The notes under the pieces were generated by a model. The model saw only the letters and a list, made by a program, of their open reading frames with translations. It was not told the origin of the DNA and ran no database searches. Shown here one piece after another: positions 2,754 to 60,222 of a DNA stretch of 60,534 nt. The DNA comes from Phoronis ovalis (lineage: Eukaryota > Phoronida > Phoronidae), in contig JAOXYB010080275.1 in assembly GCA_028565635.1 (NCBI GenBank), positions 3,529 to 64,062 on the forward strand, in the 5' to 3' direction. Position numbers and translations under genes: made by a program. Every line of letters starts with the position of its first letter. The first letter of the stretch is position 1.

Positions 2754-5700
2754 TTAGAAGGAAATTACAACTTTGCCATCCAGAGCTTTCTCCAAAAGAC
2801 TTCCAGTTGTCATGCCTCCCAGTATATCCAACTGAGATAAGTTTAGTCCAAACTCTTTGTGAACCCAGTTCACCATATCCACGGCCATCAGTGAGTCCAC
2901 CCCATAATCCATCATAGGTTTGTTTAAATCAATTTCTTCGGCTGAGATATACAGCATTTCGCTGAGCTTTGACACTACTTTATCTTCGACATGCTTTTGT
3001 TCAAGTCCTTCAATGCCTAATAAAAAAAGGAATTAAGAAATAGTAAATTGTTCACTTCAATTCGTGAATTTCAACTTGCTTCATTCAAACTTTATTTTGC
3101 CTCCTGTATGAATTCTTTTTGATATATTTTAAAATATAATAAATATTAGCCAAAAAATAGTTTGTACCTGTGATATTTTGGGTTTCTAAACTTTTATACA
3201 TCATTGTTTATATAGAACAGAACACTTAATCAGAAAATATTGTATTTGTTGTATATACTATATACTCACTTGCTTTGTTATCACTTGAACCCAATAAATG
3301 TCGGAACTTCATCATATTCTTATGACAGAAGGAAATTGTGCTTTCCCATTCCTTGAAAAAAAAGTAAAAGTATGTATCATTTATATTGAAAGTTTCATTT
3401 TGTACTTCATGTAAATTGTTTGCTGTTTTTAATAATTTTATAATGAAAATTATATAACAGTAGCGGATATTACTGGTCTTTACGCATTTCCAACAATTAG
3501 TGAATATTCTTAAAATCCCGCGCGATATGTTTCAAATGTTTAGTTGTTTTTTTATTTTTCTAAAAAACACTTCATAAGTTGTTTGAAATTTTTAGATGAA
3601 TTTTAATTGATGAATAATCACTTACCATATTCGCCAGTGCAACAACTGGTGGTAGATCTTTTTGTCTCAATATTTTTTCCATCGCTTCCAAATACTCATT
3701 AATGTATAACGGTTTTAGGCCTTTGGCTAGCATAATTTTGGCAGTAGTTTGTTTATCTTCCAAGAATCCAGCTCCTTTAACGTAGCCAAGTTGCAGTGAC
3801 AACCCACATAAGCCTTGTTTTCGTCTCTTGCTGATCAGGGCATCTAAGAATGCGTTGGCAGCCGAATACCCCGCTTGTTCTGGATTGCCCCATACGGTAA
3901 TAATGGAAGACGAACATATGAAATAATCAAGATCCATATCTTTAGTAAACTGATGGAGGTTCCAGGCGCCATATGCCTTTGCTCTTAATGCTTTAGCAAG
4001 CTGTTCATCTGTCATGTTAATGATGGCCGCATCATCAATTACACCAGCAAGATGAAAAATGCCCTTCAAAGGTGGCGCTGACTTTAACAGCAATGACAGA
4101 GTGTTTTCTACATCTTTTTGCGATGAAACATCAGCTTTAAATTCTTGTTCATAAACTTTAACGCCCATTCTTCTGAGATAGGCAACGGTACATTTCTGTA
4201 AATTTGTCTTGCAGCCGGACCTTGAGACAATAGCGATATGTCTTGCTCCCTTTTCTGCCATCCATCTTACCAAAGCTTGGCCAATGCCACCTAAACCACC
4301 CGTTATAACGTATGTTGAATCTTGCTTGAAAAGTTGAAGAGAAGGATGAACGTGCGGTGGTTTAAAAGTATCTGGAATGTCTAAGACCATCTTTCCTTGG
4401 TGTTTCCCTGTCATCATCCATTGAAAGATCTCTTTATAGTTTTGAATCGGATTCGGTGTTACTGAAGTCACTTGTATGTGGCCTGAATTTATACGTTCAC
4501 AAACATTTTGCAGAATTTTCTGTACCTTAGTGGGTTGCTGTTTTGCTAGAATGTCAAGCTGCACGGAGATGAAGGATTTATTTTCAAGCAAGACTCTCAT
4601 ATGTAAAGCACTGTTATCAAGAATATCTCTTTTGCCGAGCTCACAGAAGCGTCCACTAGGACTGAGAACTTCAAGACCTTTGGCAATGTATTCACCAGAC
4701 AGACTGTTTAATATGACATCAACACCATTACCTTTTGTCCATTTCTTGATGTCATCAGCAAATGTCAAGGAATGTGAATCACTCACGTATTCTACACCAC
4801 ATACATCACGAAGGTAATTTCGTTTCTGCTCGTTTCCAGCGGTACATAGAATTCTAGCTCCGACCATCTTTGCAACCTGAATTGCAGCTTGACCAACACC
4901 TCCACAAGCTGAGTGAATTAATACCGTTTCACCAGGTTTTAAACCGGCACGGTCAATTAAAGCATGGTAGGCTGTAGAGTAAACAATTGGTATACCAGCA
5001 GCTTCGTTCCAGGATATGCTTTCTGGTTTCTTCACGACCAGACGAGAGTCACATATGACATGAGAAGCAAAGCAGGCATCACCAAGGGCTATTACGTGAT
5101 CACCAACATAAATTCCACCAGTATCATCACACGTTTTTTCAACAACACCGGAACACTCCAGTCCAAATTGTGGAGTTATGTTTAACTTGTCCAGCAAACC
5201 AGTTGTCAACAAAACATCTTTGAAATTAATGCCAGCTGCTTTGACCTTAATCAAAACTTCACCTGAACGTAATACAGGGTTATCCATTTCGTAAAAATTA
5301 ATAGCGTCAACACTTTTTATTCCTGTTTCAAATTCGAGTCGCCACATTTCTCCTGCAGATTTAGTCAGTTGCGATGTATTATTGAGTCTCAGTACACGTG
5401 GAACAAGAATGCCGTCACTGCTTATCACAATTTCTTTATCTGGGATTGAATCTTTCTTTAAAAATATTTTTCTTAGCCAGTGAACAACGTTTTGAGGGTC
5501 ACACATGGATGAAGCATCAATATTGACAGAAAATATTGGGAAATCCTTGATTTCATTACAAGCCACACGCATAAAACCGATAGGTAGACTGGAATAAACA
5601 TCGGAATCAGCAGAATTACGCGTTAAAATCCATAAGCTGCAAACATGTTGGTTATGCTTGTATACTTGTTTCATCAACTTGAGAGTTGTTTGCATGTCCA

Positions 5701-8700
5701 AATCTTCACGATCCCAAATATATACCACATTTATACTTCTGTCATTTGTGCCTTTGTTCTTGAGCATACTGGTTAAAGGGTCACCATTCAGCAAACTGGC
5801 ATTGCGAAATTCCACCTGATCATCAGGAAGGGCAGCTTTAAGTGCTTCCGTTAAATCATTATTGTTGTGATTGTATACTAACCAACCGGTAGATCTGTAT
5901 TTTTCTTGTCTCGATTGCGACAGGTAATTTTCATTTTTCTGACCAATAATTACAGAATGAAAGAATTCGTTTGGTGTAGACAAGCCAACAACATTAGAAA
6001 AACCATTCTTACCAACAACCTCACACCATTTATCTTGTGGTAACCAACAAGTATCAACCCTCTCGTCGTCGAAAATCCAACAAAGCTCCAAAGAACCGAA
6101 AATAATTTCAGAAATGTTGAAGGTGTTTGTACCTTCATACATCATTAGCCAACCATCTTCAGAAATAAGATCCCGCATATTCTTTAACCCTTCATCTAGT
6201 TTGATGACAGAATGTAAGGTGTCCATACAGATAACCATATCAAAAGTTCCTGGAACAAATCCTTGATCTGCAACATCTTTTTCAATATCCAGCTGCTGAT
6301 ACTTTACTTCGGAATATGCTTCTAAAGTTTGGCGAGCGTGTACAAAGAATGTTGTGTTTAAATCTGTAAAGGTGTATTCGACTCTGCCTTCTTTCACCAG
6401 AGAATGGCATGCTTGCAGTACATACTTAGCAAGACCTCCCATGCGTCCTCCAACCTCCAGAATTCGAATAACTTCTTTCCTGCTTGAAATTTCCTGCAAA
6501 TTTTTTGCTATTACTTCAGCACCTACTTTGTAAAATAACCTCGTAGTAAGCGAATCGATGAAATACAAGGCTAAAGCATCAGCAGCAAAGAGAACAGAAA
6601 GGGCAACACTTGGATCTTTCAAAGTTTCTGGTAACAATGACCCCAGACGTTGAAGCAGTCTCAATTCAACTGATATTTCTGGCAATGTTGTCTGCAAAGT
6701 GTGCACGATGTCGTTTATTTCGTCGATCTTGTTGATGTTTGTGTTTTGCGTATTAATCATTTGTTGAAGCCTTTGAACGTACTTTGCATTTCGAGGATGG
6801 ATCTGATCTGTTGAAACAAGTTGCAGAGCATTCTTAGCGTATGCAATTCCAACTTCTTGAATGGTGTTTAAATGAGTCTCCACTCTTGCGATAGCTTCCA
6901 TTTCAACGGGATATTTTTCTGTTAAACGTTCAAAAGTGAAAAAGGTTTCTGTAGTCTCAGGATTTGGAAGACAAGCAGTGGACGCCTGCCATTTTGTTTC
7001 GTATAAGCAGGAAGCAATATCTACTTCACTTTTGACTCCGGACATATTAGTAGCCTCAAACCCAAGGATTTCCATTAGAACTTTACCATTCTCATTCAAA
7101 AGACAAATATCAGCAGTTATGCGGGAGTAAGAATGATCTGTAATTTTAGCATAAGCAACGAGCTGTTCATCAACAGGCATTTTGGGAAGGAACATATTAA
7201 AGTTAGCAATTCTAACAGGTAAATACATCGTTGTTCTTAAACCAAGAGCTGCAAGGGCAACTTGAAAGCAACCATCAAGCATGGAAACATGCACGCGTTC
7301 TTGACCGTTTTGTGGATTTGTCAAGTATGCCAGAGCTTCTCCATCACCAGCGTGGATAGTCTTGATGACTTGGAATGATGGACCATACTCTAAACCCAAA
7401 TGCCTGAAAGAGTCATATAGTTGTTCTGACTTTATTTCTGTGTCTATTGATTGGATAAGATCTTGTAGGTGAAGGTTGCCATATTTTCCTTTAGTCGATT
7501 GCATGATATCGGCATTACAATGCTTACCATCTGCTGTTGAAAGCTCGACTGTTGATCCAGATTTAGAAGACTGCATTTTAACCCCGCTTTTATCACTTAT
7601 TACCAATACATGAGTGAAATCGATGTTTTTCAAGCTGGGCTTGTCACTGTCATTAAAATACGCCTGGACAATAAACTCTATGTATCCTGCACCAGGAAAA
7701 ACTTGGCTACCGTTTACAACATGATCTACCAAGTAAGGAAAAACGTCGTTTGAAATGACACCATTTTGGCCTTTAAATGTACGGTCTATTAATCCAAGTC
7801 GTCTTTTTTTGCACTGTTCAGCCTCTTCCCAATGTACTTTATGGTCCCAAGCATATCTCGGAATAGGAGTCCATTGGCCAGAGTAGTTTGTAACATTTAC
7901 CCAGTTTATGTTACAACCTTTGACGTACAAAGTGCCAAGAGCTTGAAGCATAGTAGCACGATCATCTTTTAGTCGAAGATTGGATGCAATCATAAGCGGC
8001 ATATCTTGCGTGTTCTTTTTTGCTGTTTGGGTGATACATGACAGTAAAGTAGCTGACGCTCCACATTCTAAGAAAATGTTAATATTTTCATCTTCAAGAA
8101 TAGCTTTTGTAGCTGCCAGAAAATCGACAGGATTCCGAATATTATCCCACCAATATTGCGCATTAAGCCTACTGTCAGTCTTTCTGCCTAGAACTGTAGA
8201 GTAGAAAGGAACGTTTGTTTCCACATTAGGCTTTATTATTGTTGCTTTGAGAAATTCTTCTTTCATTGTTTCCATATGCGGTGTGTGAAATGCACATTTC
8301 ACACGAAGACGCTTCGCTTTTGACGGATTATTTTCTGCAATTTCTTGAACTATATTTTCATCACCTGCTAATGTTACAGACCCTGGGGCGTTAATGCATG
8401 CTACATACAAGTCATCATATAAATCGCACAATTTCTGTGAATCTTCATAATTGCCTCTATATGCTGCCATTCCTCCCTTACCAATAAGTTTAGCTTGCAG
8501 ACGACTTCTATGGTAAATAACTGCTACAGCATCTTCCAGCTTCAATGCACCACATGCATAGGCGGCAGCAACTTCACCAAGACTATGTCCAATAACAACA
8601 TCTGGCATAATACCCCAGTGTTTCCATAAGGCAAAAAGACCAATTTGGAAAAACAAGATAGATGGCTGCGATATTTCCACTTGGTTGATCAAATCTTCAG

Positions 8701-11700
8701 TTACGTGTAAACCATTGTTGTCCAGTCCTGCAAAGACTCCATATTTCTGGACTAGTGAGTAACCACTAAATGTTTCATATATTTTATCACACTTTATGAT
8801 GATCTTTCGAAATTCAGGCTCCGACTTGTAAAGCTGTTGTCCCATATCAGCCCACTGCTGACCTTGACCTGGAAAAACCATGCAGATTTTTGGTTTCTCC
8901 TTTTGCGCTTGGCCCTCTATAACATTGGAACATTGTGTGTTATCCGCAAAAGAAAGGACTGATTTTCTAAAATTGAAGCCGGAATCAGAAATTACGGCCA
9001 ATCTGTTTGCATAATGTTCATGCTTAGTGGCCAGAAATCCAACAACACCACTGGCATCGGTTTGGGATTCGAAAGCAGCCCATTTAGCTGCAGTTTTAGT
9101 TAAAGATGTGGCTGATTTAGCAGATAAGGGTACCAGTAAAGGCATGCCAATTTCAATATCAGCACCAAATTTCCATCCGCATTTTGTTGTAGGATCATTA
9201 GTCACAGAAATACTGGCGTCAGGTGACTCTTCAAAAATCATATGCGCCAATGCACCTCCAAAGCCGTAATTGTTCACACCAACTATGCATCGTTTCTTCT
9301 CTGGTAACGGCTCAAGCTTCTGCTGAATTTCCAAGTTTAATTCTTCAAGGTTTATACTAGGGTTTGGTTTGCTGTAGTTAATTGATGGACAAAATGTTCG
9401 TTTTTGCAGCATTAATGAAGTTTTAATTATACTGACAGCTCCCGACGCACACTCCATGTGCCCAAAGTTACTTTTACCAGAACCTATTTTCAGTGGTGTT
9501 TCCCGACTCGGACCAAATGTTTTACCAATTGCCTCTGCTTCAATTGGGTCACCAACGGGTGTGCCGGTACCATGAGCTTCAACGTAATCAACGTCTGATA
9601 GTGGAATTGCAAATCTGGAATAGGCGGTTCTCATTAGGCTCATTTGAGCGCTTGTGGATGGCATTGTGATACTTTGACTGTAACCATTATCACCTATAGC
9701 GCTGCCTCTGATGACACAGTAAATGTGGTCACGATCTTTTAGTGCTGTATTCAACGGTTTGAGAAGAACTGCACTAAATCCTTCACTTCTAACGTAACCC
9801 TTAGCAGACTCGTCAAATGGACAAGAACGTCCTTCTGGAGATAGCACATTAAGTTTACTGAAGCCTACTGTGATTTCAGGTAGAAGAAGAGCATTACTTC
9901 CACATGTCATAGCTAAATCGCATTCCCCATTCCATAAGGCTTGACAAGCAAGATGTGCTGATGTCATAGATGATGCGCAAGCTGTATCTACAGCAAGGCT
10001 TGGACCTTGAAGGTTAAAGACATACGAAATGCGATTAGCAGCAACACTGTGCGCCACACCGGTATGAGCGTATGAATTCATCAAATTTCTGTCACCAATC
10101 ATCATAAGTGGATAATCTAACATGCCAATACCAACATAAACGCCACATCGTGATTTCAGAGCGTCAGGAATTATACCAGCATCTTCAAACGCTTCATAAG
10201 ATACTTCCAGAAGATGGCGTTGTTGGGGATCCATCATGGCAGCTTCACGGGGAGAAATTTTAAAGAATGAGTGATCAAAACAGTCGACATTAGAAATAAA
10301 GCCCGCTCGTGTGCTAACATGAGTACCTGGTTTTGTATTATCTTGGCTGTGATATGTGTCAAGAGACCAACGATGCTTTGGAATTTCCGTGATGACGTCA
10401 CGCCCGTTAGAGATAACTTCCCAAAAATCTTCGGGACAGTTAACATCACCAGGCATTCTGCAACCTACAAAGTCAGTGGTACATGCATACATGTTAGCAG
10501 TACATTAAAAGATATCCGCCGTAGATGTAATTAAAAATAATTGCCATATTTAAGTCCATTCAAGAGGAAAAATACGTTTCAATGAAATAGCTTACTAGAA
10601 TATCAAAGAGTATACACTTAAATGTTTCCACATCTACGTTTCATCTTTAAATCTAATGTGTCTTGTAGACTGAAGTTAAAATATAGTTTCAAATAAAATT
10701 GCATCTTAGATAAAACCGGTAACCATCATTATAGACAGAGAACTGGTCTTGCCGTAAAAACATGAGCTAGTAAATAGAATTTTAATATAATATTTAAAAA
10801 ACAAATGAAAATCAATTTTTTTATACATTTTTGAATGGTGGTCTTTTATGTAACATGATATAAGTTTTTTTAAATTAGAGTAAAAAGGGAAGAAAGAGTA
10901 TTTATTATAAAATAGTCATATACTTTGTGTTTCACAAAATACTTCTTTTTATTTTTGTTTGATAAACTTAAGATTTACTTTCTTAATTTTTTGTAGACAC
11001 TTTTAACATTGTTTAAAGCAATTTATTATGAAATCTAGCACGCGCCTTTTGTGTGAACGTAAACTAATATATATGATTGTGTTTAAGCAATTATCATGCC
11101 AAAATAATTACATTAAAACTTGATGTGATACTTACCAATGCCAATTACAGCAATGGGACAGGGTTGATCTTTCTTAAGGCATTCTTCACTGTATGTACTG
11201 GCAACACGGCAAGAACTTGTATCCGAATTAACTCGTACTTTAAATGGAGCATTCTTCAAAATAAAAATGATAAAACCATGTTACATGTATAATCATAGTA
11301 GCTTATCTCCTGCTCTCCATGAAATGAACAGCGGATCTGTGTAAAGAAAGAGCTCTTCGATGAATCTAGAAAATTACCTTATATACTTTTGAGATGAAGT
11401 CGAATTTTTGATTTTCAAAGAGTGTGGAGAAACCCTATCCACTTGTTTATAAACGCTATTCATACTATACCCCCGTGTTCCCGCGTTATTTTTAACGTTT
11501 TTGTGGACAAAATGTACATTTTTTATCATCATGATCCCTAAGAGGATTTAAAATTTCAGAAGTTTTGAATGCGTATTTTTTTATAGCAAAATTTCTGATA
11601 TTGAAATTCCCAATAGCCAATTGTAGCTCATTTTTTATCCACGTAACTTCCCAACGGGCATCAGCCGCCAGTACGAAAACCTAGTATCCTCACATATTGT

Positions 11701-16082: not shown

Positions 16083-18351
16083 ACATATACTATAATTTTG
16101 TGATTTTTCTGTTGCATTAATTTAATAAATGTTTTGTTGGTAACTCTTTGGTAACCAAGCTTGGACTTTAAGAACATTTTATCAGGTTTTTTCGTTACTA
16201 ATAACAGGAAAGATCCGGCGAATCGGGTATTGCTTGCATATAGAGAGCACTGTTCACTATTGCGTCTTTTGATATTAGAATATTTAAAGCGCTAAGATTT
16301 TCGAACTAATAGCATTATAATAAAATGCAAGGATGCCAGCATGCAAGTCCCTATCCAAGAAGGGTAAACCAAGTATATCCCACGCTCTCCTATCACCCCT
16401 GAAAATCATTTATTATTTTTGTTAAACATTTTAATTCAGCGTGAGTAATATAATACCTAACATGATTCAAAATTTCATAATTTTTGAATGTGCTGTTTTT
16501 AAGAAAGTTCTTGTTTCGCCGACTACCGTTACAATTCTCTAGCGCCAACAATAAGCATACGGAATCGTTCAACATTGACGAGTACTTATTGGCTCAAACT
16601 GCTCATCTGAATATGACCTTTAATTCTATCTTTATGTATGGACTAAAAATTGCAATAATTATATTTATGATGTGCATTAATTTCGAAGTGGAACCCGTAC
16701 ACATTCATCGTGTATGCTGCGGATAATTGTTTTTCACTTACGGCGGCTATGGAGGATTTGTAACGTGGATTTTCTAAAAACGGCACGTTAAAAATATCAA
16801 TGGAGTATTGGATATACTGTTAGGTAATAATATTACTCAAGTTGATAAATTATGTTCCACAACAACCTTATTAACAGGATATACTTTAGCGATTACCGGT
16901 GAAATCCCATTGGAGGATCTTATAGTATTGACCTCACATTCCGCTGCACCGATAAACACTTGTTACAAAGTCTACAGGTAGTAAATATAAATACCATACA
17001 GTCCAAACACTGTTGAGTTCCCACGTTCAAGGTAAATGTTGACAGATACGATAGAGAGAGATAAATATCAGAATTCCGCGAAATTGACCAGGAAATCGTA
17101 ATCAATTTTCTATTGGATAAAAGACTAAAGATTCACTATCACTATGCATATTTTTAATATTTGCGATATGCTAACCAAATATTTAATTGCACCTTTAAAT
17201 TATAATGAATCTAACCATTCAAACAAATATGAAGTCCACGAAATAAACAAAAACAGTTTTTTCCCAAATGAAACTGTAGACACTCTACCATTCGCAGTAT
17301 TACTGCTAACGCTGGAATACCGTTACGTTTATCGTGTGTATTAGGTCAATTATACATAGAGCAATTAAGTTAATATATTTTACGAGTAGTAAAGGGGTGA
17401 TATTTTAATTTTATAGCTCAACAATACACTGTAGCTAGACGATATTGCAATGGTATGTTTTTATAAATTTATAGTTACATCAGGTAACAAAATATCGAGC
17501 AATACTGTCATCAAATAAGTTGCAGAAATCACCGTAACCGCATCGTACCCGGGCTTCGTGCATGAGTGGGCTGACATTTAAGTTATTGGATTGCAAGTCG
17601 GACAATGGAAAAACACGTTAAAACACTCAATAATGAAGATTTTGACATTTATTACAAAAACATACAGGTGTGGAAGGAAATCCTACGCTGTCCATCTAAA
17701 CAGAATACATCAAAGTATTTATAACACAACATTTCTTTGATAAACATGTTGACATAATCTGAATTGTGACATACAAACAAGAAAGTGTTTTTGCTTTACT
17801 CTGTTATATTTTAAATTACAATACACCTTTGTCATCAGTACTTTTATTCGTATAGTAACCGATAAAACTGTGCAAAAAGGTCATTTCAAGTTCAAGTTCA
17901 TTACTGAAAGTAAGAATACAGAACTATAAAAAATTGTCCAGTAATAAATTAGATGAAAAACGATGTTCAAAGAGTCAAACCATGTGTCGTTTAGATACAT
18001 CACACATTCTCTAAATAATTTCAATCTTATTTAAGAGTTAATGAGCGTACTGAACAAAGATTTCCGAGATCCATGGTCGTTTTGAATGTCAGTTAAAAGC
18101 CTAAGCTTGGCCTGTGTCTTTTACAGCGTTCCTCTTACATAAAAGACTTCAAAAGTCATAATTGGCACCTGAATAGTCTATTTTTGACAAGGGTTGATAA
18201 AAGGATCTCAATTCACAAAGTGGGTTCTTATACACATCGATAATCAAAAACGTATTCAAAAATGCGTATACGCTTAAACACACACGACGGTATCAAATAT
18301 ACAGAGCCAGGCTAGATTTGCGTATTGAAGCAATATTATAAGAGCGATATA

Positions 18352-18808
18352 AAATTTATTATATAAATATCAGGCATACAACCAGGCGAGGCATATCAGC
18401 CAGGCAGTGAACACACTGCTAGACTCACTCGTAATTATATACAAATTTATTATATAAATATCAGGAATACAATCAGGCGAGGCATATCAGCCAGGCAGTA
18501 AACACACTGCTAGACTCACTCGTAATTATATACAAATTTATTATATAAATATCAGGCATACAACCAGGCGAGGCATATCAGCCAGGCAGTAAACACACTG
18601 CTAGACTCACTCGTAATTATATACAAATTTATTATATAAATATCAGGCATACAACCAGGCGAGGCATATCAGCCAGGCAGTGAACACATTGCTAGACTCA
18701 CTCGTAATTATATACAAATTTATTATATAAATATCAGGAATACAATCAGGCGAGGCATATCAGCCAGGCAGTGGGCACACTGCTAGACTCACTCGTAATT
18801 ATATACAA
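18352..18808. repeat. Minisatellite, 5 copies of a 91-bp unit
   Basis: The anchor TTTATTATATAAATATCAGG occurs at 18355, 18446, 18537, 18628 and 18719, giving an exact 91-bp spacing. Units differ by a few substitutions (GGCATACAACC or GGAATACAATC; GTGAACACACTG, GTAAACACACTG or GTGGGCACACTG). The two variants alternate in part, which suggests expansion by unequal exchange of multi-unit blocks. There is no open frame across the units and no unique spacer between them. Confidence 0.95.
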
Positions 18809-21800
18809 GTAATTTGTCGTTTTACACGCAATTATATCCTTGAGATATTTATATGACATTCAAATAACAATTTATGTTATATATATAAAGATTTATAAAA
18901 CAAAAAATTCATTTCAAGCATCTAATATTATTAATTCAAAGCTAGCATTTACTAAATCAAAACAGTATCAAACCAAATAAGAAAGCTAAGTGTTGTCGGT
19001 TGCGTACAGAATATTCTCCACCTCGGAACTCTTTAACAGTATATAGTAACAGCTCATAGTGTCTTTTTATTTTAACTTAAAAGTTTTGGGAAAAACGACT
19101 GGAATAATTTTCGAGAAACCAGCCATTTAAACATGAGTTTAAGTATTCTTATGACAAGTAATTAAACTGACACGTAATAATGTAATTGGCGACTAATTAA
19201 ATTGAGCTGGATATAGATGCTTAAACCTGCGTCCAGATATTATCCATACAGATTACCTGATATTCATGATCAATTCATTTTTTATATATTTTAAAATAAT
19301 AATATACCATCTGTGTTACATAATCTGAAGTCTAAGAAAATAATGTAAATTTTTTTTAAAAGTTGGAATTATGCTTTCAAGCTTTCTGGGTCCGCTTTTC
19401 TTTGCACTCCACTGATGGTCAAAACAAATTATACTATTCCATTGTAGAATTATTTTAAAACCGTCTTAATATTTTAATTATAAAAATATAGAAAACAAAG
19501 GATATCTTATTATTATTTTTATACTATAAAGCTTAACTGTATTTATAAGCTTTTATTTTATTATATTTAAAACTTGTTTAAACCAGAAAATCAAAATACT
19601 TGCTGGAATGAAATCATTATAAATATAGGACAAAAGCCGTGAAATAAACAACTATTTTTAATTTGCTTGTTTGTTATCGCAGAAGAGCTTGGGGTCATCT
19701 TATCGAACCAGTGGTCATTCGATGTCACCGGAAGCAGGAATCACTTGTTTACTTGCACTTTTATTCCAAACCTGTACACCGGTCAAACATGTCAAAATAT
19801 TGTCACGTATATTCATATTACAAGAGTGAATAGGTATTGCGGCTGCACCCGATTGTGTTCCGGTAGGTCAAATATCCGTAGCACGGTCTGGTAGGAATCT
19901 AAAGAACGTCCATAAACAGAAATTGTAGTACGTAATTAATAAAAAATCTGTTACTTATTCTATCCCTTCGAATCACAAAAAATACGTTTTGAATACCTAT
20001 GTTCGAACAATTAATTTGTTTCCTTTAAGTGCAGGTGCTAGGTGCGCTTCGCCTATTTTACAGCACGTATTTGTCTCAAGTCACAGAAAGTAGACGGTGC
20101 ATATATTTTGAAATTGAATGACTGAAATTGCTGTGTTCAATGCAATAGACTATTTGCATGCACTTGGCGGAGCCACCAGTCTCAGACCCAAAAGATCCCA
20201 GCATGTCGAATTTTCTGAATGAACAATGACGTATTCTGCGTGCGCTCACGTGATTCATTCATAAAACGCACCATCCTTCGGATGTTGAGCCAAAATCAAA
20301 ACAAATCTGATTTTCTTTGATCTAAGAAAAATTCTCCTTTTTATGAGCATATCAATACATAAACAACTATTCGTTACTGAATATTTTTTTATTTTGTTAA
20401 ATTTCAGCGGTTAAATCTTTCCTAAAGTCAGATTTAAAAAAAACACAAGTTTTGTATATAACTAAAGGATCACGGTATTGAAAGGGTCTGACTGTACTGT
20501 GACTGTAGCGCCCTCAAGTGCATGCAAACAGTCTATTTTAATACTTCGTACTTTTTGGCGAAAAACAGGTTTGATTGATTCATTATTAGGAAATACGAAA
20601 GCGACAGTGTTCGAAAAAAGGGAAAAATAATATGTTCAGCAGTTAAAGCTCGGACTGTTACAGTGTTTAATCTATAATGGAATGAAACAAGTGCTTTTAT
20701 AATTTCTTTAAAAGAAATAAATAACATCTTTTAAAATTGAGTTGAGATTGGTTTAATTACATAATTTACATCGCGTTTTTGGCAAGCAAAAAAAATCGTA
20801 CGATTGACTAATTGAAGGAGATAAAAAGCGAGTCATCGAACAATAAAACGGAAAAAATAATATTTCCACCAGATAAACCTTACTCAAACTGTATTTGTTT
20901 GATCTACAATGTACTAGAATGACTCGAACGGTATAGTATAGCACTTACCTGTTTCGTGACGCACCTGTGAACAATAAAGATATAATTATGTAGACCTAAA
21001 TAAAACAAGATAAATAAATCCTAATTACACGTTTTGATTTTTTTTTCACTGTATAACACGGTATACAACGAATAGCTTATAAAAGTTTATCACTTTTATC
21101 GTTTAAAAAAATAGAACTAGTGCAAAATTAGTCAATGTCTTATATCAGAACTGAGTTATGCAATCATCATGTGACTATACACTAAATGTAGGTGGTTACT
21201 TGACGAGTTGGTGCCCCAAATCTGGGGATATTAATCAATTTACCGCGTACAACATTCATAACAAGTTATTGCATCTCACGGGAGAACTAAAACACGTGAA
21301 TCGAATCAACGAATACAAATATAGATGGTAACACCTATAGATATGGCGAGCGTACTAATTAGCTTTTTTAATTTCTCTTTTTCTTTTCATTTGGCCCCTG
21401 GGCAGCCATGGGGACATCTCTCTTTGGAAGAGGATATAATTTCGCACAAAATGATAAAACTCACAATTTAAAAATCTCATTTTTTGTCAAAAATTGGTGG
21501 GATTATATCCCAGCTTAGAATTAAGGTCACCCAGTTTTCTGTGTATTTCTCACTAATTCCACCAGGTGGTATGTTGTTAGCGTTCACACAAAAGTTAATT
21601 GGTTAATACTGCACGAAAAATCGAGAGTAGGCATGAGACACGAGTATCTTTATTTTTGACTGAACTAAATTTTCGGCGAAGAGTTAGTCTATTTACTAGA
21701 AGACAATACGTTACTACTGCGGTGGAACGGAACACCAATTGCATCTTTATGCCTGCTGCGAAACCAAAGTCTTATTTTATTATAATCTTAATATAGTATA

Positions 21801-31375: not shown

Positions 31376-44091
<12,716 letters not shown>

Positions 44092-46295: not shown

Positions 46296-48739
46296 CTAAA
46301 CTTCCAAACTGAGATCTACCTTGAGATCTATCAGCTGCTTTAATTTTACCAGATCTTCCTCACTGATTATTTCGTGTTTCTCAGTCTTTGTATGCCATAC
46401 CAATATCTGCAAAATTGATTTGGACAATACATAGTTTATCACAAAATAGTCAGCACCCATGTGTGCATGCGTGTGCGTGTGTGTGATTTGTTTGAGAATG
46501 TCACGCTGGGCAACTTCCATTATTCAGCATGGGAATAGCAATACCCATTTTTTTCTATTTCATTATACAGTTTTGTAAAAAAGTATGCGCCAGTCGATTT
46601 AGATATTCTAACTAGCTTTCACATTGTTCTACATTTATATCGCAAAGAAGAAAAAAACAAAATATATATATTATCCTTAGAAATAGGACCGAACTGCAGA
46701 TTGCAGAATTAAAAATGTAAATAAGCATGTGTTAGAAATACTTCAATTAAATATGAATTTTTAGGCAGCCGGATAGTTTTTAAATAATGATACGTGAGTC
46801 GCCATAAACGTTAACAGTAACACATATTTCGGTTTTATACACGAGTCTGAGAATTAATCCAACAATAATCGCTTACAATTGGTAGGAACGTTTAGTTAAC
46901 ACAATTCAAGCTGAACAAATTAAATTGTTTTTGAAACACAGTTTAATTTTCTAACAGTTTTTTAATTGTGCCAAATATAGAGATTGTACGTGTATATCAT
47001 GCAATTCTAGACACACATATAGAGCGATAATGTAATGAAGGAGAATTTCAGATTAACTGCGTTTTAGTTTTGCGGTTTCTGTGTCTCACCTTGTCACAAG
47101 CCTTTGGTTCCAGTTCGCCCATGGTAACAAGTTGACTCAAGAATGAAGATTCTAAATAACCGTTTTGAATATCAATGTCAAACTGAACTTCGGGATTTTC
47201 TAGAATTAGTTTTACATTTACCGCAAAACCTGCCATGTCCAGTGCAAATTGTCTCTGACGTGCCCAGAGAATAAACCAACCTGTTACCTGGAAAATATCA
47301 CATTGTTATAATTATATAGTGATGATATATTATTACAAAAGGCATCAACATGGAAGTGCATGATTGTAGTTTTATTCATCCCAACTCCTTTGTATTTCGT
47401 AACGGATCAAGAATGATATCCTTAGAATAACTTCAGTGGACATATACTAACGTGACAACACAATTTATCGCAGTGCTGAAAATCTGGAGACGATATATAC
47501 ACGGAGTAGATTTAGTACTTATTCTGGTTAAAATATTAAATCTAACTGATGAGAAAACAGTTTCGCCGTGTGAAATTCCCACAAAGCCTTTGACGGTTTA
47601 TTTTGGAGACATGTTTTAATACATATTTACCTTTCCACTTTGACATATTGGACTTCCATATTTAAGCCCATAAACAAAGCCGACAGGCCATACTGATACC
47701 TTCTGAGTATACCGCATCTGAAATGATGCAGTAAACAGTAACTTAGTAAGAAATTTAAATTGTAACACAGCATTCTACTTTAAATTTAATAGCTACAGTT
47801 TAATATACAAATACTGATCGAGTACTTATTTAACTGAACTATATGGAGAAATAGTGCGATATTTGGTTATAATTCGCTGTAGTGTACAGTTATCCGAATA
47901 CTAACTGTACATTTAATATCATGTTAAATTATCTCGAAAATCAAAAGCCATAAAGAAATACGTTATCATTTTAAAATCAATAAATCTCGTCAGTAAAACT
48001 TTTGTTTAAAATCCATAATCAATTGGAGATTTTGAAAGTACAAAAAGAAATACCTCCTGAAATAATTGTAGATCATAAGTATTATCATCATCTGCAAAAT
48101 AGAGGACTCCTTGATCTCTTCGATAATTAAAATTATTTCTTATCCAATTTAAAGCTAAATTTCTTTGCAATCTTCCTCTGTGATGTGATATTTCAATATC
48201 ATGTATCGGGGTAGTAATGTTTAAATGAGTATAATGTAAATTTGATTTCTTTAAAAAATGCGTCACTAGTTCAGTTTTATAATTAGAATCTTCAACAACA
48301 ATCCAGCGTAATTTTGGCACATGTAGCAATGTTTGAGACAGTCTCGTCAGTTCGGCTTTTTGTTCTAATCTTGCATAAGTGGGAGTTATGCAATAGATAG
48401 TTGGTAAATTTAGCAATGTTTGAGTCAATGTGGTGAGTTCATTTTTTCCCTTTGTGCTTGCGTACCTTGAAGCTGGAAGTTTAACATTTGAGCTGCAATC
48501 TGAAAAAATGTAACCGGAATTATCAACCCAACAGCAGGATGTAAGAAACGATATTTCTACACATTTTAAAATTTAAATTTGGTCTGACACCAGAATAATT
48601 TATATCAATTGCAATAAGAAAGAGCGCAAGCTAACCCAACGCAGAACTTACTTTGCATCAGAATGATTCCAACTACAGTCAGACTGAATAATAATCCATA
48701 TATCACAATACTATTCCGAAGCCGCTGAAAAGATAACAT
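46296..48739 (-). CDS. Beta-1,3-glucuronyltransferase (GT43), type II membrane protein, complete
   Basis: Five exons: 48652-48739, 48054-48499, 47631-47717, 47090-47287 and 46296-46406. They join in frame to 309 aa, slightly shorter than the roughly 330 aa of animal B3GAT enzymes. The ATG at 48737-48739 has an in-frame TAA three codons upstream. A short cytosolic basic stretch (QRLRN) and a membrane segment at about 11-28 give a type II Golgi topology. The GT43 landmarks are all present: PTYARLEQ, HRGRLQRNLAL (136-146), the metal/UDP-binding DDD (166-168, in FADDDN), DMAGFAVN, and GYLESS with Glu252 aligned to the catalytic base. The C-terminal VWHTKTEK is also present. The family moves glucuronic acid from UDP-GlcA to galactose in the proteoglycan linker or in HNK-1-type glycans. 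I cannot say which acceptor. The stem contains a short internal duplication. Confidence 0.93.
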
Positions 48740-50026: not shown

Positions 50027-50240
50027 TCGTTTTTGTAGATTATGCGCCTCTGTTATAAGTGAGGACTTCACATGTTTAAGCCGGAATAGAACAATCAGAT
50101 TGTGACACAAGCCACATTTAAAATATCATATGTATAATAACAATTAGTGCTGATAAAATATTATTTTAATACACAGTTAAACTGCAAGAAAAAAAGACTT
50201 TTATGTAATTTTGAAATATAATTTTCAAGTTATAAAACAA
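50027..50240 (+). pseudogene. Decayed copy of the last ABC transporter exon and 3' UTR
   Basis: Aligns with 43938-44225: the acceptor TTTTTGTAG|ATTAT, then (after loss of about 50 bp) GAGGAC, ACxTGTTTAAG, CAGATTGTGA, ATATCATATxTATAA, AATTAGTGCTGATAAAATAT and, in the UTR, TTCAAGTTATAAAAC. The reading frame is destroyed by the deletion and several substitutions. It is much older than the copy at 45420. It suggests that a second ABC transporter gene once stood next to PKS2 and was lost. Confidence 0.8.
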
Positions 50241-51276: not shown

Positions 51277-51282
51277 TTTATT
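51277..51282 (-). terminator. Candidate polyadenylation signal of PKS2
   Basis: AATAAA on the minus strand (TTTATT on +), about 60 bp beyond the PKS2 stop codon. Confidence 0.4.
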
Positions 51283-51342
51283 CAATTGCAGGCTTCGAGA
51301 ATCACAATAATCAATAAACTTCCGCTTACAGTGTGTTAACAT

Positions 51343-54300
51343 TTAGAATGAAATAACAACTTTACCATCGAGAGCTTTTTCCAAAAGATTTTGGGTAGTC
51401 ATGCCGCCTAATATATCTAACTGTGATATGTTTAATCCGAACTCTTTGTGAACCCAGTTCACCATGTCAACGGCCATTAATGAGTCCACTCCATAATCCA
51501 TCATAGGCCTGTTCATATCAATGTCGTCTGCCGACAGGTACAACATTTCACTGAGCTTCGAAACGACTTTCTCTTCTACCTGCCTTAGTTCAAGTCCTTC
51601 AGCACCTGTGTGAATAATAGAGGTATCATACATTGTAATTGATGTCGTCATTTGTTTGTTCGTTTTGTTCTTCGGATCACTACTGTTTTCTAAAACATTA
51701 CATTTTCTCCTAACTAGGAAGATAAGGTGTTTACATATTTATAACAAAAGACTATTTCCGAGCAGCAGTATTTTATAAAGTATAACAATATTTCTGGAAC
51801 TCACCACTTTTGTTATCACTTGACCCCAATAAGTGTCGGAACTTCATCATGTTCTTATGACAAAACAATATTGTTCTTTCCCATTCCTTGAAAGATATAA
51901 GTATTAGCAGTTATTAATCTATTAAAAAGAGTTAAAACATACCAATTATTGCAAATAAAAATTTTCAAATCATGCATATGGTCGGTCTGTTATAGATTTA
52001 TCGTTTTCCTGAAAAAAAATTCGTTCTGTTAAATGTTTATCTGAGTAAAAAAGTATTGCGTCACAGAAAGATAACTCACCATATTTGCCAGAGCAACAAC
52101 TGGTGGTAGATCCCTTTGTCTCAATAATTTTCCCATCTCCTCCAAACACTCACTAATGTATAACGACTTCACACCTTTGGCGAGCATAATTTTGGCAGTA
52201 GTTTGTTTGTCTTCCATAAAACCAGCTCCTTTCACATAACCTAACTGCAGAGACAATCCACACAAGCCTTGTTTTCGTCTCTTGCTGATTAGGGCGTCTA
52301 AGAATGCGTTGGCAGCCGAATACCCCGCTTGTTCTGGATTACCCCACACAGTGCTAATAGAAGATGTACATACAAAATAATCAAGATTCATATCTTTAGT
52401 GAACTGATGAAGATTCCAAGCGCCGTGAGCTTTTGCTCTTAGAGCTTTACCAAGTTGTCCTTCTGTCAGGTTAACTAAGGTCGCATCATCAATTACTCCA
52501 GCTAGGTGAAAAATGCCCTTCAAAGGTGGAGCTGATTTCAGCAATAAGGTCAAGCTGTTCTCTACATCTTTTTGTGACGAAACGTTAGCCTTAAATTCTT
52601 GCTCATAAACGTTAACACTCATGCTTATAAGATAGTCAACCGTACATTTCTGTAAATGTGTCTTGCAGCCCGATCTTGAGACAATAGCGATATGTCTTGC
52701 CCCGTTCTCTGCCATCCATCTTATCAAAGCTTGACCAATGCCACCTAAACCACCTGTTATTACGTATGTTGCATCTTGTTTAAACAGCAGGAGGGAAGGA
52801 TAAATACTGCTTGGTTCAAAGGTGTGAGGAACATTAAAGACCAATTTGCCTTGGTGTTGTCCTCTCATCATCAACTGAAAAACATCTTTAAAGTTTTCAA
52901 TCGGATGTGGTGTTATTGAAGTCATTCGTATATGACCTGATTCTATTTGTTTGCAAACGTTCCGCATAATTTTCTGTACTTTGTCTGTGTGATGTTTTGT
53001 TAGAATATCAAGCTGCACGGAGATGAAGGATTTATTTTCAAGCAAGACTCTCATATGTAAAGCACTGTTATCAAGAATATCTCTTTTGCCGAGCTCACAG
53101 AAGCGTCCACCAGAACTAAGAACTTCAAGACCCTTTGCAATGTAATCGCCAGACAGGCTGTTCAATACAACATCAACACCATTTCCTTTCGTCCATTTTT
53201 TGATGTCATCCGCAAATTTTAAGGAATGGGAATCAGCCACGTACTCTACACCACAGATGTCGCGTAAGTAGTTCCGCTTCTGCTCGTTGCCAGCGGTACA
53301 TAGAATTCTAGCTCCGACCATCTTTGCTACTTGAATTGCAGCTTGACCTACACCTCCACATGCAGAATGAATTAACACAGTTTCACCAGGCTTTAAACCG
53401 GCACGGTCAATTAAAGCATGGTAGGCTGTAGAGTAAACAATGGGAATACCAGCAGCTTCATTCCAGGTTAATCTTTCCGGTTTCTTCACAACGAGACGAG
53501 AATCGCAGATTACATGAGAAGCAAAGCAAGCATCACCAAGTGCTACTACGTGATCGCCAACATGAAGTTCGCCAGTATCATCTGATATTTTTTCAACGAT
53601 ACCGGAACATTCCAAGCCAAATTGATTAGTTATGTTTAATTTGTCTAGCAAGCCAGTTGTTAACAAAACATCTTTAAAATTAATACCTGACGCTTTGACT
53701 TTAATCAATACTTCACCTGGACGTAGGATAGGGTTAGTCATTTCGTAAAAATTAATTGCGTCAACACCTTTTACGCCTTTTTCAAATTGAAGTTGCCACT
53801 TCGTCCCTGTTGATTTAGTCAAATGTTGTGTATTGTTTAGTCTCAACAGGCGGGGAACGCGTATGGCGTCACTGCTAATCACAATCTCTCTGTCTGAAAT
53901 GGAATCTTTCTTTAAAAATGTTTCTCTCAACTGGTCGTCAAGGTTACGAATGAAGAGAGAATCAATATGTATGGAAAATATTGGAACATCTTGGATTTCG
54001 TTGCTAGCTACACGCGTAAAACCAATTGGTAGACTAGAGAAAACATCGTTATCCTCAGATTTAAGGTTGCACGTTACAATCCAAAAACTACAGACATTTC
54101 TTATGTGCTTGTACACTTGCTTTATCAAATTCAGGGTTGTTTCCATTGCCATATCTTGATGGTCCCAGACATACACCATGTTAATACTACTGTCATCAGC
54201 GCCTTTATTTTTCAACATACTGGACAAAGAGACGCTATTCAATGAACTAGCATTTAAAAACACCGCTTGATCGTCAGGAATGGCCATTTTAAGTGTTTCA

Positions 54301-57300
54301 GTCAGACTATTATTGGTGTGACTGAACACAAACCAGCTAGACTTGCACATTTCTTGCTCGAAGCCGGTCTGAAAATCTTCACTTTTCTGACCTACTATTA
54401 TAGAATGAAAGAATTCATTTGGTGTAGACATACCCACAACATTATGAAAACCATTCTTGCTGAATACTTTGCACCATTTATCTTGTGGTAACCAGCAAGT
54501 ATCAACCCTCTCGTCGTCGAAAATCCAACAAAGCTCCAATGAACCGAAAACAATCTCAGAAAGGTTGAACGTGTTTGTACATTCACACATAATTAGCCAA
54601 CCATCTTCAGAAATAAGATCCCGCATATTCTTCAGTCCTTCTTCTACTTTAATGACCGAATGCAAGGTATCCATACAGATAACCATATCAAAAGTTCCTG
54701 GAACAAATCCTTGATCTTCAACATCTTTTTCAATATCAAGCTGCTGATACTTTACATCAGGAAAGGAGTCTAAAGTTTGACGAGCGTGTTCAAAAAATGT
54801 TGTGTTTAAATCTGTTAAGGTATACTCAATCTCACCTTCTAAACATTGGCACGCTTGTAGTACATACTTTGCAAGACCTCCCATGCGGCCACCAACTTCC
54901 AGAATCCGAACAACTTCTTTTCTCTCGAACGCTTTCTTTAAAGCCTTAAAGACAATCTCAGCACCTGCTTTGTAGAATAATCTGGTTGTCAAAGAATCAT
55001 TAAAATACACAGCCAAAGCATCAGCGGCAAAAAGAACAGAAAGAGCAACACTCGGTTCCTTCAAAGTGTCTGGTAGCAATGTTCCCAAACGTTGAAGCAT
55101 GTTTAACTCAATGGCTAACTCAGGCAACTTTACATATAAGTCATGCACGATATTGTCGATAAGATCTAGCTCGCCAAAATTTGAAGTTTGCAATTCAGCC
55201 ATTTGACGAAGTCGACGAACGTACTTAGTGTTACGAGGATGGATCTGATCGTTTGAAACCAAGTGTAAAGCCCGTGTAGCGTATGCAACTCCAAGTTCCC
55301 GAAGGGTGCTTAGGTGTGTTTCCACTTTTGTAATAGCTTCCATTTCGTCAGGATAATTGTCTGTTAAATGTTCAAAGCTGAAAACTGTTTCTATAACTTT
55401 CGGATTAGGAAGACAAGCTGTGACAGGCTGCCATTTTGTTTCGTACAAACAAGAAGCAATATCAACTTCACTTTTGTTTCCAGACATATTTTTAGCCTCA
55501 AAACCAAGAATTTCAAGTAGAACTTTGTTATTTTCATTCAGAAGAAAGATATCTGCAATTACATGCGCGTGCGAATGATCAACAATTTTAGCAGAAGCAA
55601 TGAGTTGTTCATCAGCTGGAACTGTTGGGACGAACATACTAAACTCGGCAATTTTTACTGGTAAATACATTGTTGTTCCTAAGCCAAGAGCTGCAAGGGC
55701 AACTTGAAAGCATCCATCAAGAATAGAAACATGCACGCGTTCCTGGCCGATTTCTGGATTGGTCAAGTAGGCCATAGCTTTTCCATCATGAGCATAGATT
55801 TTTTTTATGACTTGGAATGATGGACCGTACTCTAAACCCAAGTGTCTGAAAGATGTATATAATTGCTCTGTATTAACTTCTGAATCATTTGACTGAAGAA
55901 TGTCTGGGATGTGAAAGTCAGAATTACTTCCGTTAGATGACATCACAATATCGGCATTACAGTGTTGACCATCAGTTGTTGTGAGCTGGACTGTAGACCC
56001 ATTCTTAGAAGACTGCATTTTTATTCCAGTTTTATCACCTAAGACCAATACATGGGTAAAATCGACGTTTTTTAAACATGGCTTATCCATGTCATTAAAA
56101 TACATCTGGGCAATAAACTCTATGTACCCTGCACCAGGAAATACTTGGCTACCGTTAACAACATGATCTGCCAAGTATGAAAAAACATCACTTGAAATGA
56201 CACCATTTTGGCCTTTGAAGGTACGATCTATTAACCCAAGGCGTCTCTTCTTACATTGTTCTGCTTCTTCCCAATGCACTTTATGCTCCCATGCGTATCT
56301 GGGAATAGGAGCCCACTGGCCAGAGTAGCTTGTAACATTTACCCAGTTTATGTCACAACCGTTGACATACAAACTGCCAAGAGCTTGAAGCAGAGTTACA
56401 CGATCATCATTTAGTCGGAGATTTGAAGCAACCATGAGCGGCATATCCTGCTTGTGTTTTTTTACTGTTTGTGTGACACATGGTAGCAGAGTGGCCGACG
56501 CTCCACATTCTAAGAAAATGTTGATATTTTCATCTTCAAGAATAGCTTTTGTGGCTGATAGAAAATTGACAGGATTTCGAATATTGTCCCACCAATATTG
56601 CGTATCAAGAGAACGGTCAATCTTCTTTCCTAGAACAGTAGAATAGAAGGGCACTGTGGTTTCTACGTTGGTTTCTATGATTTTTACAGCCTTTAAAAAT
56701 TCTTCTTTCATCGATTCCATATGTGGTGTATGAAAAGCACACTTTACCCGAAGACGCTTGGCTTTTGACGGGTTATTTTCTACGATTTGTTGAAGTGTAC
56801 TATCTGCACCTGCTAGTGTTACAGATCCCGGGGCATTGATACATGCCACGTACAAGTCATCGTACGAGTTGCACATTTTCTGTGATTCTTCATATGTACC
56901 CCTGTATGCTGCCATACCTCCTTCACCCACAAGATTAGCTTGTAGACGACTTCTGTGGTAAATAACAGCCACAGCATCTTCCAATTTCAACATACCACAT
57001 GCGTAGGATGCAGCTACTTCACCTAGACTGTGTCCAATAACAACATCTGGCACAATACCCCAGTGTTTCCATAAGGCAAAAAGACCAATTTGGAAAAACA
57101 AAATGGAAGGTTGGGAAATTTCCACCTGATTGATTACATCTTCAGTTACGTGTATACCATTGATGTCTATTCCAACAAAGACACCACATTTGTGAATAAT
57201 AGAGAAGCCACTATATGATTCAAATATTTTATCACATTTCTTGATCGTGCTTTGAAATACAGGTTCGGTCTTGTAAAGCTGTCTTCCCATATCCGCCCAC

Positions 57301-60222
57301 TGTTGACCTTGACCAGGGAAAACCATACAGACTTTTGGTTTCTTCTTTTGTACTTGACCCACTATTGTACTTGAAGGCAGTGTGTTATCACCGAATGAAA
57401 GGGCAGATTTTCTAAAATTAAAGCCAGAATCAGCAATTATAGCCAATCGATTTGAATAGTGAACATGCTTGGCCGCCAGAAATCCAACAATGCCGCTGGC
57501 ATCTGTTGTAGACTCATAAGTTGTCCACTTAAAAGCAGCCTTAGTTAAAGACACTGTAGATTTGGCTGACAAGGGTACCAATATGGGCATACCAATTTTT
57601 TCTTCAACACCAAACGTCCATCCGCACTTTGTAAACTTGCCATGAGAATCAGACACCCGACTATCATGGAACTCTTCAAAAATCATATGTGCCAATGCGC
57701 CTCCAAAACCGTAATTGTTCACTCCAATAATGCATTTTTTGCCCTCTGGTAATGGTTCCACTTTCTGCTGAATTTCCAAGTTTAAATCTTCAAGATTAAT
57801 ATTAGGATGTGGTTTGCTGTAATTTATTGATGGACAAAGGGTTCTTTTTTCCAACATCAATGACGTTTTAATTATACTGACAGCACCAGATGCGCACTCC
57901 ATATGACCAAAGTTGCTTTTACCAGAACCTATTTTCAGTGGTCTTTTCCGATCTGGACCAAAGATTTTACCAATTGCCTCTGCTTCAATTGGGTCACCAA
58001 CGGGTGTACCTGTACCATGAGCTTCTACGTAATCTACATCAGAGGGAGAAATCGCAAATGTCGAATATGCGGTTCTCATCAGACTCATCTGTGCACTTGC
58101 GGATGGCATTGTAATACTCTGACTATGACCATTGTCACCGATACTACTGCCTCTAATGACACAGTAAATGTGATCACTATCTGCTAATGCTGCATTCAAA
58201 GGCTTAAGCAGAACTGCACCCACTCCCTCACTTCTCACATAGCCATTTGCAGAGGCATCAAATGGACAAGAACGACCTTCGGGAGACAAGACATTAAGTT
58301 TACTGAAACCTACAGTAACGTCAGGTATAAGGAGACAGTTAGTGCCACATGTAATAGCTACATCGCATTCCCCATTCCACAATGCTTGACAGGCAAGGTG
58401 AGTTGATGTCATGGATGATGCGCAAGCTGTATCAACTGCAAGGCTTGGGCCTTTGAGGTTAAATGCATACGAAATGCGATTAGCAGCAACACTGTGCGCC
58501 ATACCAGTATGTGCGTATGAATTCATCAAATGTTTGTCACCAATCATCATAAGTGGATAATCCATCATACCTATACCCACATACACACCACATCGGGATT
58601 TCATCGTGTCAGGAATTATACCAGCATCTTCAAAAGCTTCATAGGATACTTCTAGAAGATGGCGTTGTTGAGGATCCATCATGGCCGCTTCACGGGGGGA
58701 AATTTTAAAGAATGAATGATCAAAACAGTCAACATCAGAGATAAAACCTGATCGTGTGTTGACATGTGTACCTGGCTTTGTATTATCTGGATTGTGAAAT
58801 GCATCAAGAGACCAACGGTTCTTTGGAATTTCCGTGATGACGTCTCGTCCATTGCAAATTACTTCCCAGAAGTCTTCTGGGCAGTTAACGTCACCAGGCA
58901 TTCTGCAACCTATTAAGTGAGGAGTTACATGTCTACTTGTTTGCAATATATTAAATTCTAAAACAATCAGTAATTCTTTTAATTTATTGACAAAACTGGG
59001 CCAAGTGAATTATTCTCCTTTAGGTACATTTACAATACCAAAAAGGTTTTTTTTGAAAAATAACAATACATTTAACCAAATATTAACCTTAAAAACATGA
59101 AGCATATACTGGTAAACGATATTAGAATCAATCTAACTGTTTTGTAGCGACTAATTAGAAGAAAACAAGATTCTTTTAAAAAATCTGTAGTCTTATTACT
59201 AGCAATCAAATAACACAACATCAAGAGAATGTAATCAAAATCAGAAAGTTTCAATCCGGCTTCACACCCTACCCAAAAGATGACACTGAATTGTCTTGTG
59301 TCGCCGACACCAAGCATATGGCTTCCAACACAAAGTTTAAAGATTTTGATCCAGCCTCATTGAAATCGGTCCAGTACTTTCCAAGTTTGGTGTAAATTAT
59401 CTCGTCAAGCAGTGCACTTAATAATATCCGGGGCTATGCTATTTACTTTCTAAATCCGTTACTCAGCTTTTTTAGGATCAATGTATTACAAGAGTGTCAT
59501 AACTACAAACTTGTTACATTTACTGTAAACTTACCAATACCAATAACAGCAATTGGACAGGGTTGACCTTTTTGGTGCCATTTTTCAGTGCACGTACTTG
59601 GTTCGTGGCTTAAGTTTGAATTCAGCTTGTCGAACAGTCTAAATTGAACATTCTGCAAAGATAAGAACAATATACAGCCTCTGTATAAAGTACCACCGAT
59701 CCAGTGCATGTAAATGAACTATTATATTTAATTACTATAAAAACCTACCTCTTCAGCAGAGAATTCGTCATCAGCAGTTTTATTTGTTTCATCAGATGAA
59801 GGGTATGTTTTCATATCAACATTAGACTTGCAAGATTCTTCGTGGTATGTCGTGTTTCCTACAAATTTGAAAACTACAGTATTTACTGTCAGACCCAGTA
59901 GTTGGTATTAAAACACAGTTGCAAAAGCAAGACTGCAATCTAGTAGTATTATCGTATTGGAATTAATTAAAATAAGTTTCGAAACTAGATTCGTGTCCAT
60001 TAATAACAGGCAAGTTACTTTATGTTGCAGCAAAACGAAATGCAGAGTTTAACGGCACACCATTTTAAATTATTTTTAAATACCACTTAGCCACATTTTT
60101 TGTTAAATCAAAATATAAAACATTGCCGTTTTTATTTCCTTTGATTTTAATAGCTTACCATTTTTAGCGGTTGGTGGTTCCGGCTCCTCTTGCTCTTTCC
60201 CCTTCCCCGTCAGAATTGTCAT
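51343..60222 (-). CDS. PKS2: highly reducing type I polyketide synthase, KS-MAT-DH-MT-ER-KR-ACP
   Basis: Six exons: 60159-60222, 59749-59858, 59535-59652, 52080-58909, 51805-51886 and 51343-51605. They join in frame to 2488 aa. Exons 1, 2, 3, 5 and 6 have exactly the same lengths and phases as in PKS1 (64, 110, 118, 82 and 263 bp). The ATG at 60220-60222 has an in-frame TAA upstream. KS: Cys260, His395, His433. MAT: Ser725 in GHSLGE, CAFHTPHM. DH: His1013 in HVVNGSQVFP, Asp1162. MT: motif I EVGGRMGG, same Arg as PKS1. ER: HSACGGVGQAA at about 1945. KR: TGGLGGIG at about 2149, Tyr2294. ACP: Ser2443 in GVDSL. All catalytic landmarks are kept, so both copies look functional. There is no thioesterase. 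Overall identity to PKS1 is roughly three quarters to four fifths by eye, with some identical DNA patches. The likely role is the same class of reduced polyketide with a possibly different chain length or substrate. Confidence 0.93.

Follow-up and report, generated by a model that had tools for sequence, protein, structure and literature searches.

We describe here a 60,534-nucleotide stretch of DNA from the phoronid Phoronis ovalis (the window; bases 3529-64062 of contig C4495, in an assembly of 77.4 Mb and 4805 contigs) that carries two polyketide synthase (PKS) genes, a flavin monooxygenase (FMO), an ABCC5 (MRP5)-type transporter and a GT43 glucuronosyltransferase. On balance, we favour the view that this is a real phoronid block, in which a reducing iterative PKS of the SpPks1 family, present in two copies, has been kept beside an FMO and an ABCC5 exporter. 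The gene order is PKS1(-), FMO(-), ABCC5(+), GT43(-), PKS2(-), which puts a core synthase in physical linkage with genes for tailoring and transport. The enzymes are ordinary by family and it is their arrangement that is unusual. This order and orientation, as well as the MRP5-like identity of the transporter, had been proposed in an initial annotation and are confirmed here by Pfam matches, exon models and colinearity with human ABCC5. The annotation had also called all the genes intact, and indeed PKS1, PKS2 and FMO give open spliced models (the N-terminal exon of each PKS lying outside its model), whereas ABCC5 and GT43 have been traced only as exon pieces in colinear order.

PKS1 (2754..11253, minus strand) has exons at 11136-11253, 3626-10464, 3270-3351 and 2754-3016, and PKS2 (51343..59652, minus strand) at 59535-59652, 52080-58909, 51805-51886 and 51343-51605. 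The exon lengths (118/6839/82/263 and 118/6830/82/263) agree closely between the copies, and both four-exon models have GT-AG borders and a single terminal stop after the ACP. The long open frames measure 2310 and 2326 codons between stops and in both genes give Pfam matches in the order KS, AT, DH, MT, ER, KR, with the ACP on a separate last exon. The domain order is therefore KS-AT-DH-pseudoMT-ER-KR-ACP without a thioesterase, which is that of SpPks1-type synthases. The KS, AT, DH, ER and KR motifs are intact in PKS1 and PKS2, and the MT of PKS1 is probably a pseudo-domain, judging from a GGRMGG motif common to the family and from a published remark on the C-methyltransferase (cMT). The KR tyrosine is missing from SpPks1 and CrPKS, whose KR has been called likely inactive and whose cMT has been called catalytically inactive (PMC11414698; this and the other papers are cited here for excerpts of their text). 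The same tyrosine is lost in the Lytechinus sequence of our set but present in the Anneissia sequence P0019 and in all four phoronid PKSs found (PKS1-4, see below), which places the latter outside the aromatic-product subtype marked by its loss. Because PKS1 and PKS2 retain the tyrosine, unlike the pigment makers SpPks1 and CrPKS, they are predicted to make reduced chains, and on the evidence of their domains these are their most likely products.

A KS search of the assembly revealed four PKS genes of the SpPks1-type family, PKS3 and PKS4 being located on contigs C2725 (loci L005 and L006) and C4321 (L003). Protein identity is 78.5% between PKS1 and PKS2, 84.4% between PKS3 and PKS4, and 51-52% across the pairs. 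A protein search gave 3400 matches among 7989 candidates scored, of which 120 were listed; among these, the best named matches share 39-51% identity and are PKSs from amphioxus, hemichordate, echinoderm, Owenia and Gigantopelta. A FastTree phylogeny was built from 47 rows, the four phoronid PKSs and 43 of the listed matches, with a bacterial outgroup. In it, the phoronid sequences form one clade (99 SH-like) inside an animal group, on branches flagged as long, and group with echinoderm, hemichordate and amphioxus PKSs apart from bacterial PKSs. The tree held no fatty acid synthase (FAS), animal FAS-like PKS (AFPK) or fungal rows; compared by bit score alone, PKS1 matched the sacoglossan EcPKS1 (453 bits) more weakly than the bacterial-type mycocerosic acid synthase (807) or FAS (595).

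The FMO gene (28951-23795, minus strand) is modelled in 7 exons encoding 531 aa with no internal stop. The product is a full-length animal FMO (PF00743) with a FAD motif, GAGISG, and an FMO motif, both assigned from what we take to be the usual motifs, and with a C-terminal segment that is hydrophobic by eye. Its NADPH motif (26486-26541) reads GNSNSAGD, a serine replacing the usual second glycine. In a midpoint-rooted tree of 54 rows (53 of 120 listed matches and the window FMO), it stands apart from vertebrate FMO1-5. FMO and ABCC5 are arranged head-to-head, with 2.9 kb between the FMO start codon and the first assigned ABCC5 exon.

ABCC5 (31805..43412, plus strand) comprises 21 pieces colinear with human ABCC5 (32457-43412) and an N-terminal exon at 31805-31946 that was recognised by eye; the latter segment had been considered as a conserved promoter, which was rejected once the exon was seen. 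The gene is known as exon pieces, with some ends trimmed by hand and a few pieces scoring below 10 bits, and positions 375-484 and 691-734 of the human protein are unmatched in the window. The pieces nevertheless derive from both membrane and both nucleotide-binding halves, and ABCC5 is the best match, with 96, 348 and 302 bits in individual frames against 51, 257 and 171 for the best other ABCC.

We also searched the assembly for second copies of the genes between the two synthases. An 86% identical FMO (FMO2) was found on contig C1119, whose alignment to the window shows FMO2(-) head-to-head with the first exons of a second transporter gene, ABCC5-2(+), cut by the contig end. A second GT43 copy (GT43-2) lies at the end of contig C3892. 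Nei-Gojobori estimates of synonymous divergence (dS) are 0.74 for PKS1/PKS2 (2281 codons; dN/dS 0.16), 0.74 for the ABCC5 pair (102 codons from two of the four exons tried; dN/dS 0.09), 0.74 for the GT43 pair (122 codons from a single exon; dN/dS 0.22) and 0.59 for the FMO pair (527 codons; dN/dS 0.13). These sequence comparisons are most simply read as a single segmental duplication that took in the whole block, both copies being under constraint. Whole-genome duplication was also considered as the cause of the pairs and was rejected: 15 pieces with ABC, non-ribosomal peptide synthetase (NRPS) or FMO matches were compared (at least 60% identity over at least 50 residues), which gave one further contig pair, C918/C3612, at 62-74% amino acid identity and thus more diverged than the block, a count that leaves aside the PKSs, the FMO/ABCC5 pair and single ABC exons.

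Two other observations concern related genes elsewhere in the assembly. Open reading frames (ORFs) of an AMP-binding enzyme (PF00501 and PF13193; L015:337-3189) adjoin FMO2 on C1119; to go by its domains, this gene may encode an acyl-CoA ligase supplying starter units to a PKS, and a search for its remnant in the window gave nothing clear, the one match having an E-value of 0.049 over 33 residues. Long open frames of 1282 aa (L031, contig C1599) and 2915 aa (L032, contig C3609) carry two carrier-protein domains each and are NRPS-like; NRPSs have been listed in Phoronida (PMC10531068).

Linkage of PKS and FMO in other animals was compared at the contig level, for these two genes only, in the 14 taxa with both among the matches listed. 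In four of them (5 of 29 FMO rows), the best-listed FMO match is on a contig exactly as long as one bearing a PKS of this family: 39,792,004 in Owenia, 40,999,305 in Ptychodera, 25,083,287 in Glandiceps and 48,504,769 in Patiria. Given an assumed per-taxon chance of 0.05-0.10, the probability of four in 14 is 0.004-0.044; two of the four taxa are hemichordates and hence not independent. Furthermore, the FMO C3Y0X6 and the PKS C3Y0X7 of B. floridae have consecutive UniProt accessions, which for a genome project we take to indicate neighbouring genes. C3Y0X7 shares 96% identity with the highest PKS row of B. floridae, P0002, and the two therefore probably stand for one gene. C3Y0X6 is the only FMO row under B. 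floridae alone among the matches listed, where one hybrid-assembly row and one B. belcheri row score higher. In the FMO tree, the six PKS-linked FMO rows all belong to a 42-row group, separate from the other 12 rows, among which are vertebrate FMO1-5. We found no report in the open-access literature that PKS and FMO genes cluster in a phoronid, an amphioxus or an annelid, subscription papers falling outside this search.

Genetic work in sea urchins provides a functional precedent. Pks1 and Fmo3 are required there for larval echinochrome in pigment cells, where clade 1 FMOs are enriched (PMC7455242), and Abcc5D, Fmo3 and Pks1 are named as effector genes in the mesoderm from which pigment cells arise (PMC10131483). 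It is this genetics, together with the duplicated FMO/ABCC5 pair, the similar dS of the four gene pairs and the hints of linkage in amphioxus and in four further animals, that leads us to place the FMO with the PKS. The partnership put forward in the initial annotation is upheld to that extent, while the oxidation step itself is a matter of inference. We think that the PKS and FMO probably act in one pathway; that ABCC5 belongs to it is a tentative suggestion, and GT43 very likely does not. In the pathway that we envisage, the AT of PKS1 and PKS2 would load malonyl units and the KS condense them, KR, DH and ER would reduce the chain to a programmed degree, and the chain would be freed from the ACP by a releasing step other than an encoded thioesterase. 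The FMO would then oxidise the product, probably at the endoplasmic reticulum membrane, and ABCC5 may export the acidic product or a conjugate from the cell, with GT43 riding along as a hitch-hiker. The single duplication of the whole block, the shared pathway, its chemistry and the export are thus what we infer from these data.

An alternative, which we regard as unlikely, is that the genes are chance neighbours: a duplicated PKS would flank a detoxification FMO, a housekeeping ABCC5 and a glycan GT43, the segment having been duplicated later. Several observations weigh on this side or, more generally, against our own reading. PKS3 sits amid housekeeping genes: FMO, ABC-membrane and GT43 matches are all absent from its 44.8-kb contig, in about 31 kb upstream and 6.5 kb downstream, and the neighbours that could be recognised are ribonucleotide reductase and amnionless (20 of the 148 contig ORFs of at least 60 aa, scanned singly). 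The PKS3/PKS4 pair has a dS of 0.88, near the block-pair values, and GT43, a glycan enzyme, was nonetheless duplicated at the same dS as the others, so equal dS can tell us no more than that the genes were linked when they were duplicated, and not that they share a pathway. FMO2/ABCC5-2 and GT43-2 lie on separate contigs and the KS search found no match on either C1119 or C3892, so any link between PKS2 and the second block is putative. In the window itself, 12.5 kb separate PKS1 from FMO. Two ABCC5 exons searched across the assembly matched the window alone, the C1119 copy being cut off before those exons, and the window gene may thus be the housekeeping copy. Since other roles of ABCC5 are reported, namely cyclic nucleotide export, possibly haem export and a requirement in sea urchin hindgut formation (PMC12470876), a housekeeping function is a real rival for this gene. 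The sea urchin precedent is itself qualified, as echinochrome in some adult tissues is independent of Fmo3, the authors state that FMOs may work apart from pks1, and the ABC gene reported from pigment cells in that work is Abcg11 (PMC7455242). However, chance alone would put at least one FMO locus on the three PKS contigs with a probability of 0.010 (at least 7 hand-grouped FMO loci in 77.4 Mb), and at least one ABC locus with a probability of 0.018 (at least 12 hand-grouped ABC loci), both locus counts being lower bounds. Chance also accounts poorly for the consecutive amphioxus accessions, the shared contigs in four taxa and the dN/dS values of 0.09-0.22 across the four gene pairs.

Old linkage without function seems improbable to us as well. 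Here PKS and FMO would have lain on one ancestral bilaterian linkage group and have stayed unseparated in slow-evolving genomes, which suits the four-taxon evidence in that this is at the contig level, has the chance given above under the assumed rates and includes two hemichordates. Against our own reading, 10 of the 14 taxa have no shared contig (Asterias amurensis, A. rubens, Acanthaster, Gigantopelta, Anneissia, Lytechinus variegatus, B. belcheri, B. lanceolatum and two Branchiostoma hybrid assemblies), although a mismatch is weak evidence because each protein cluster names just one contig; nor do the linked FMOs form one clade, their distribution requiring 5 changes, a figure equalled by 94 of 500 label shuffles. 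What speaks against old linkage is that the phoronid spacing and the consecutive amphioxus accessions are tighter than linkage groups require, and that Pks1 has been connected with an FMO in a single sea urchin pigment pathway (PMC7455242). We give very little weight to an artefact, in which the second copies would stem from contamination, from a chimeric scaffold or from two phoronid species mixed in the sample. The assembly is fragmented and the contig opens with 3528 bases that are all N, its end coinciding with that of the window, but the window contains zero N, its genes are spliced animal genes, PKS1 and PKS2 share one contig, and FMO2 on C1119 has a different neighbour gene. A two-species mixture was rejected, the assembly giving a single COX1 match. 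The mitochondrial contig C1114 (L011, L012) has in-frame TGA and a gene order that we take to be mollusc- or brachiopod-like, with ATP6 between COX3 and ND3 and not after ATP8 as in chitons. The best match to the mitochondrial COX1, among the 120 listed, is that of Phoronopsis harmeri at 90% identity, in keeping with a phoronid source.

The GT43 gene (46299..48409, minus strand) is B3GAT1/2-like. Its exon at 48409-48042 carries the DDD motif, and the remaining exons, including the last, were traced by eye down to about 46300. Against the human proteins it scores 248 bits to B3GAT1, 247 to B3GAT2 and 228 to B3GAT3. It is a glycan enzyme and probably a hitch-hiker outside the pathway, as had been surmised from its glycan-linker motifs; a role in conjugating the polyketide was considered and judged unlikely, since the enzyme is B3GAT-like.

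That no other gene lies between the five, as was also claimed, agrees with a scan of spacer ORFs. In the four intergenic spacers, 53 ORFs reach a length of 60 aa or more; 18 of these, the longest per spacer, were scanned singly, introns being outside the scan, and none rose above the Pfam cut-off, while four gave sub-threshold matches of 13-18 bits. Two control exons reached the cut-off in the same scan. However, one of the scanned ORFs holds the presumed last GT43 exon and had no Pfam match, so genes with short exons can escape detection. Whole-frame Pfam scans (10.5-25.4 kb, stops as X) missed known FMO exons, which voids their negatives, and a hexamer coding scan trained on PKS exons was too biased for detecting other exons. 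The PKS1-FMO spacer contains a tandem array at 18347-18808 (91-base unit, about 5 copies, 96% matches), and a tandem repeat of 74 bases (2.8 copies, 99% matches) occupies 1-208, bordering the N stretch. A segment common to the window (21376-21753) and C1119 was set aside as a dispersed repeat, with 41 matches mostly at 78-84% identity (40 of 304 candidates scored). The region upstream of PKS2 (59020-60380), searched in the assembly, matched only itself and short repeats elsewhere and so gave no lead to an adjoining contig.

PKSs are reported from every animal phylum investigated apart from sponges and ctenophores, in a paper whose main text does not contain the words phoronid or Phoronis (PMC10764717). 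Animal polyketide pathways have been hard to resolve since their genes are thought to be scattered, and for echinoderms non-clustered genes are given as one reason why tailoring steps are unknown (PMC11414698). If our interpretation is correct, a block that combines two reducing PKSs with an FMO and an exporter gives ready pathway candidates in a lophophorate, and its apparent duplication as a unit suggests that the genes of a polyketide pathway stay together in some animals. How old the partnership of PKS and FMO is would also become testable across Bilateria. We can imagine, without pressing the point, that the bilaterian ancestor had a PKS-FMO cluster, perhaps with ABCC5, which phoronids and amphioxus retain, which phoronids duplicated as a block, and which echinoderms dispersed but keep as one pigment pathway.

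Fungal highly reducing PKS clusters share the domain order and pair a PKS with an oxygenase and an exporter. The analogy with bacterial and fungal clusters drawn in the initial annotation thus holds for this pairing but is a loose one: the phoronid FMO, with its hydrophobic C-terminus, and ABCC5 are animal-type genes with many introns, and the genes of the block are few and widely spaced. Closer is the sea urchin SpPks1/Fmo3 system, with a PKS of the same family, the same domain order and no thioesterase, and with a class B animal FMO reported to be needed for pigment (PMC7455242, PMC11414698); in contrast to SpPks1 and CrPKS, which give aromatic products, the phoronid PKSs have intact KR, DH and ER motifs (PMC11414698). 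The sacoglossan EcPKS1 and EcPKS2 (FAS-like) are likewise animal type I iterative PKSs, but EcPKS1 is outside any gene cluster according to the authors' statement in the excerpt cited (PMC7280274). Finally, the oro gene bundle of oroidin sponges also brings animal metabolic genes together in one chromosomal region; it differs in being an alkaloid pathway with biochemically validated proteins, whereas the phoronid block is known from its sequence alone (PMC12833800).

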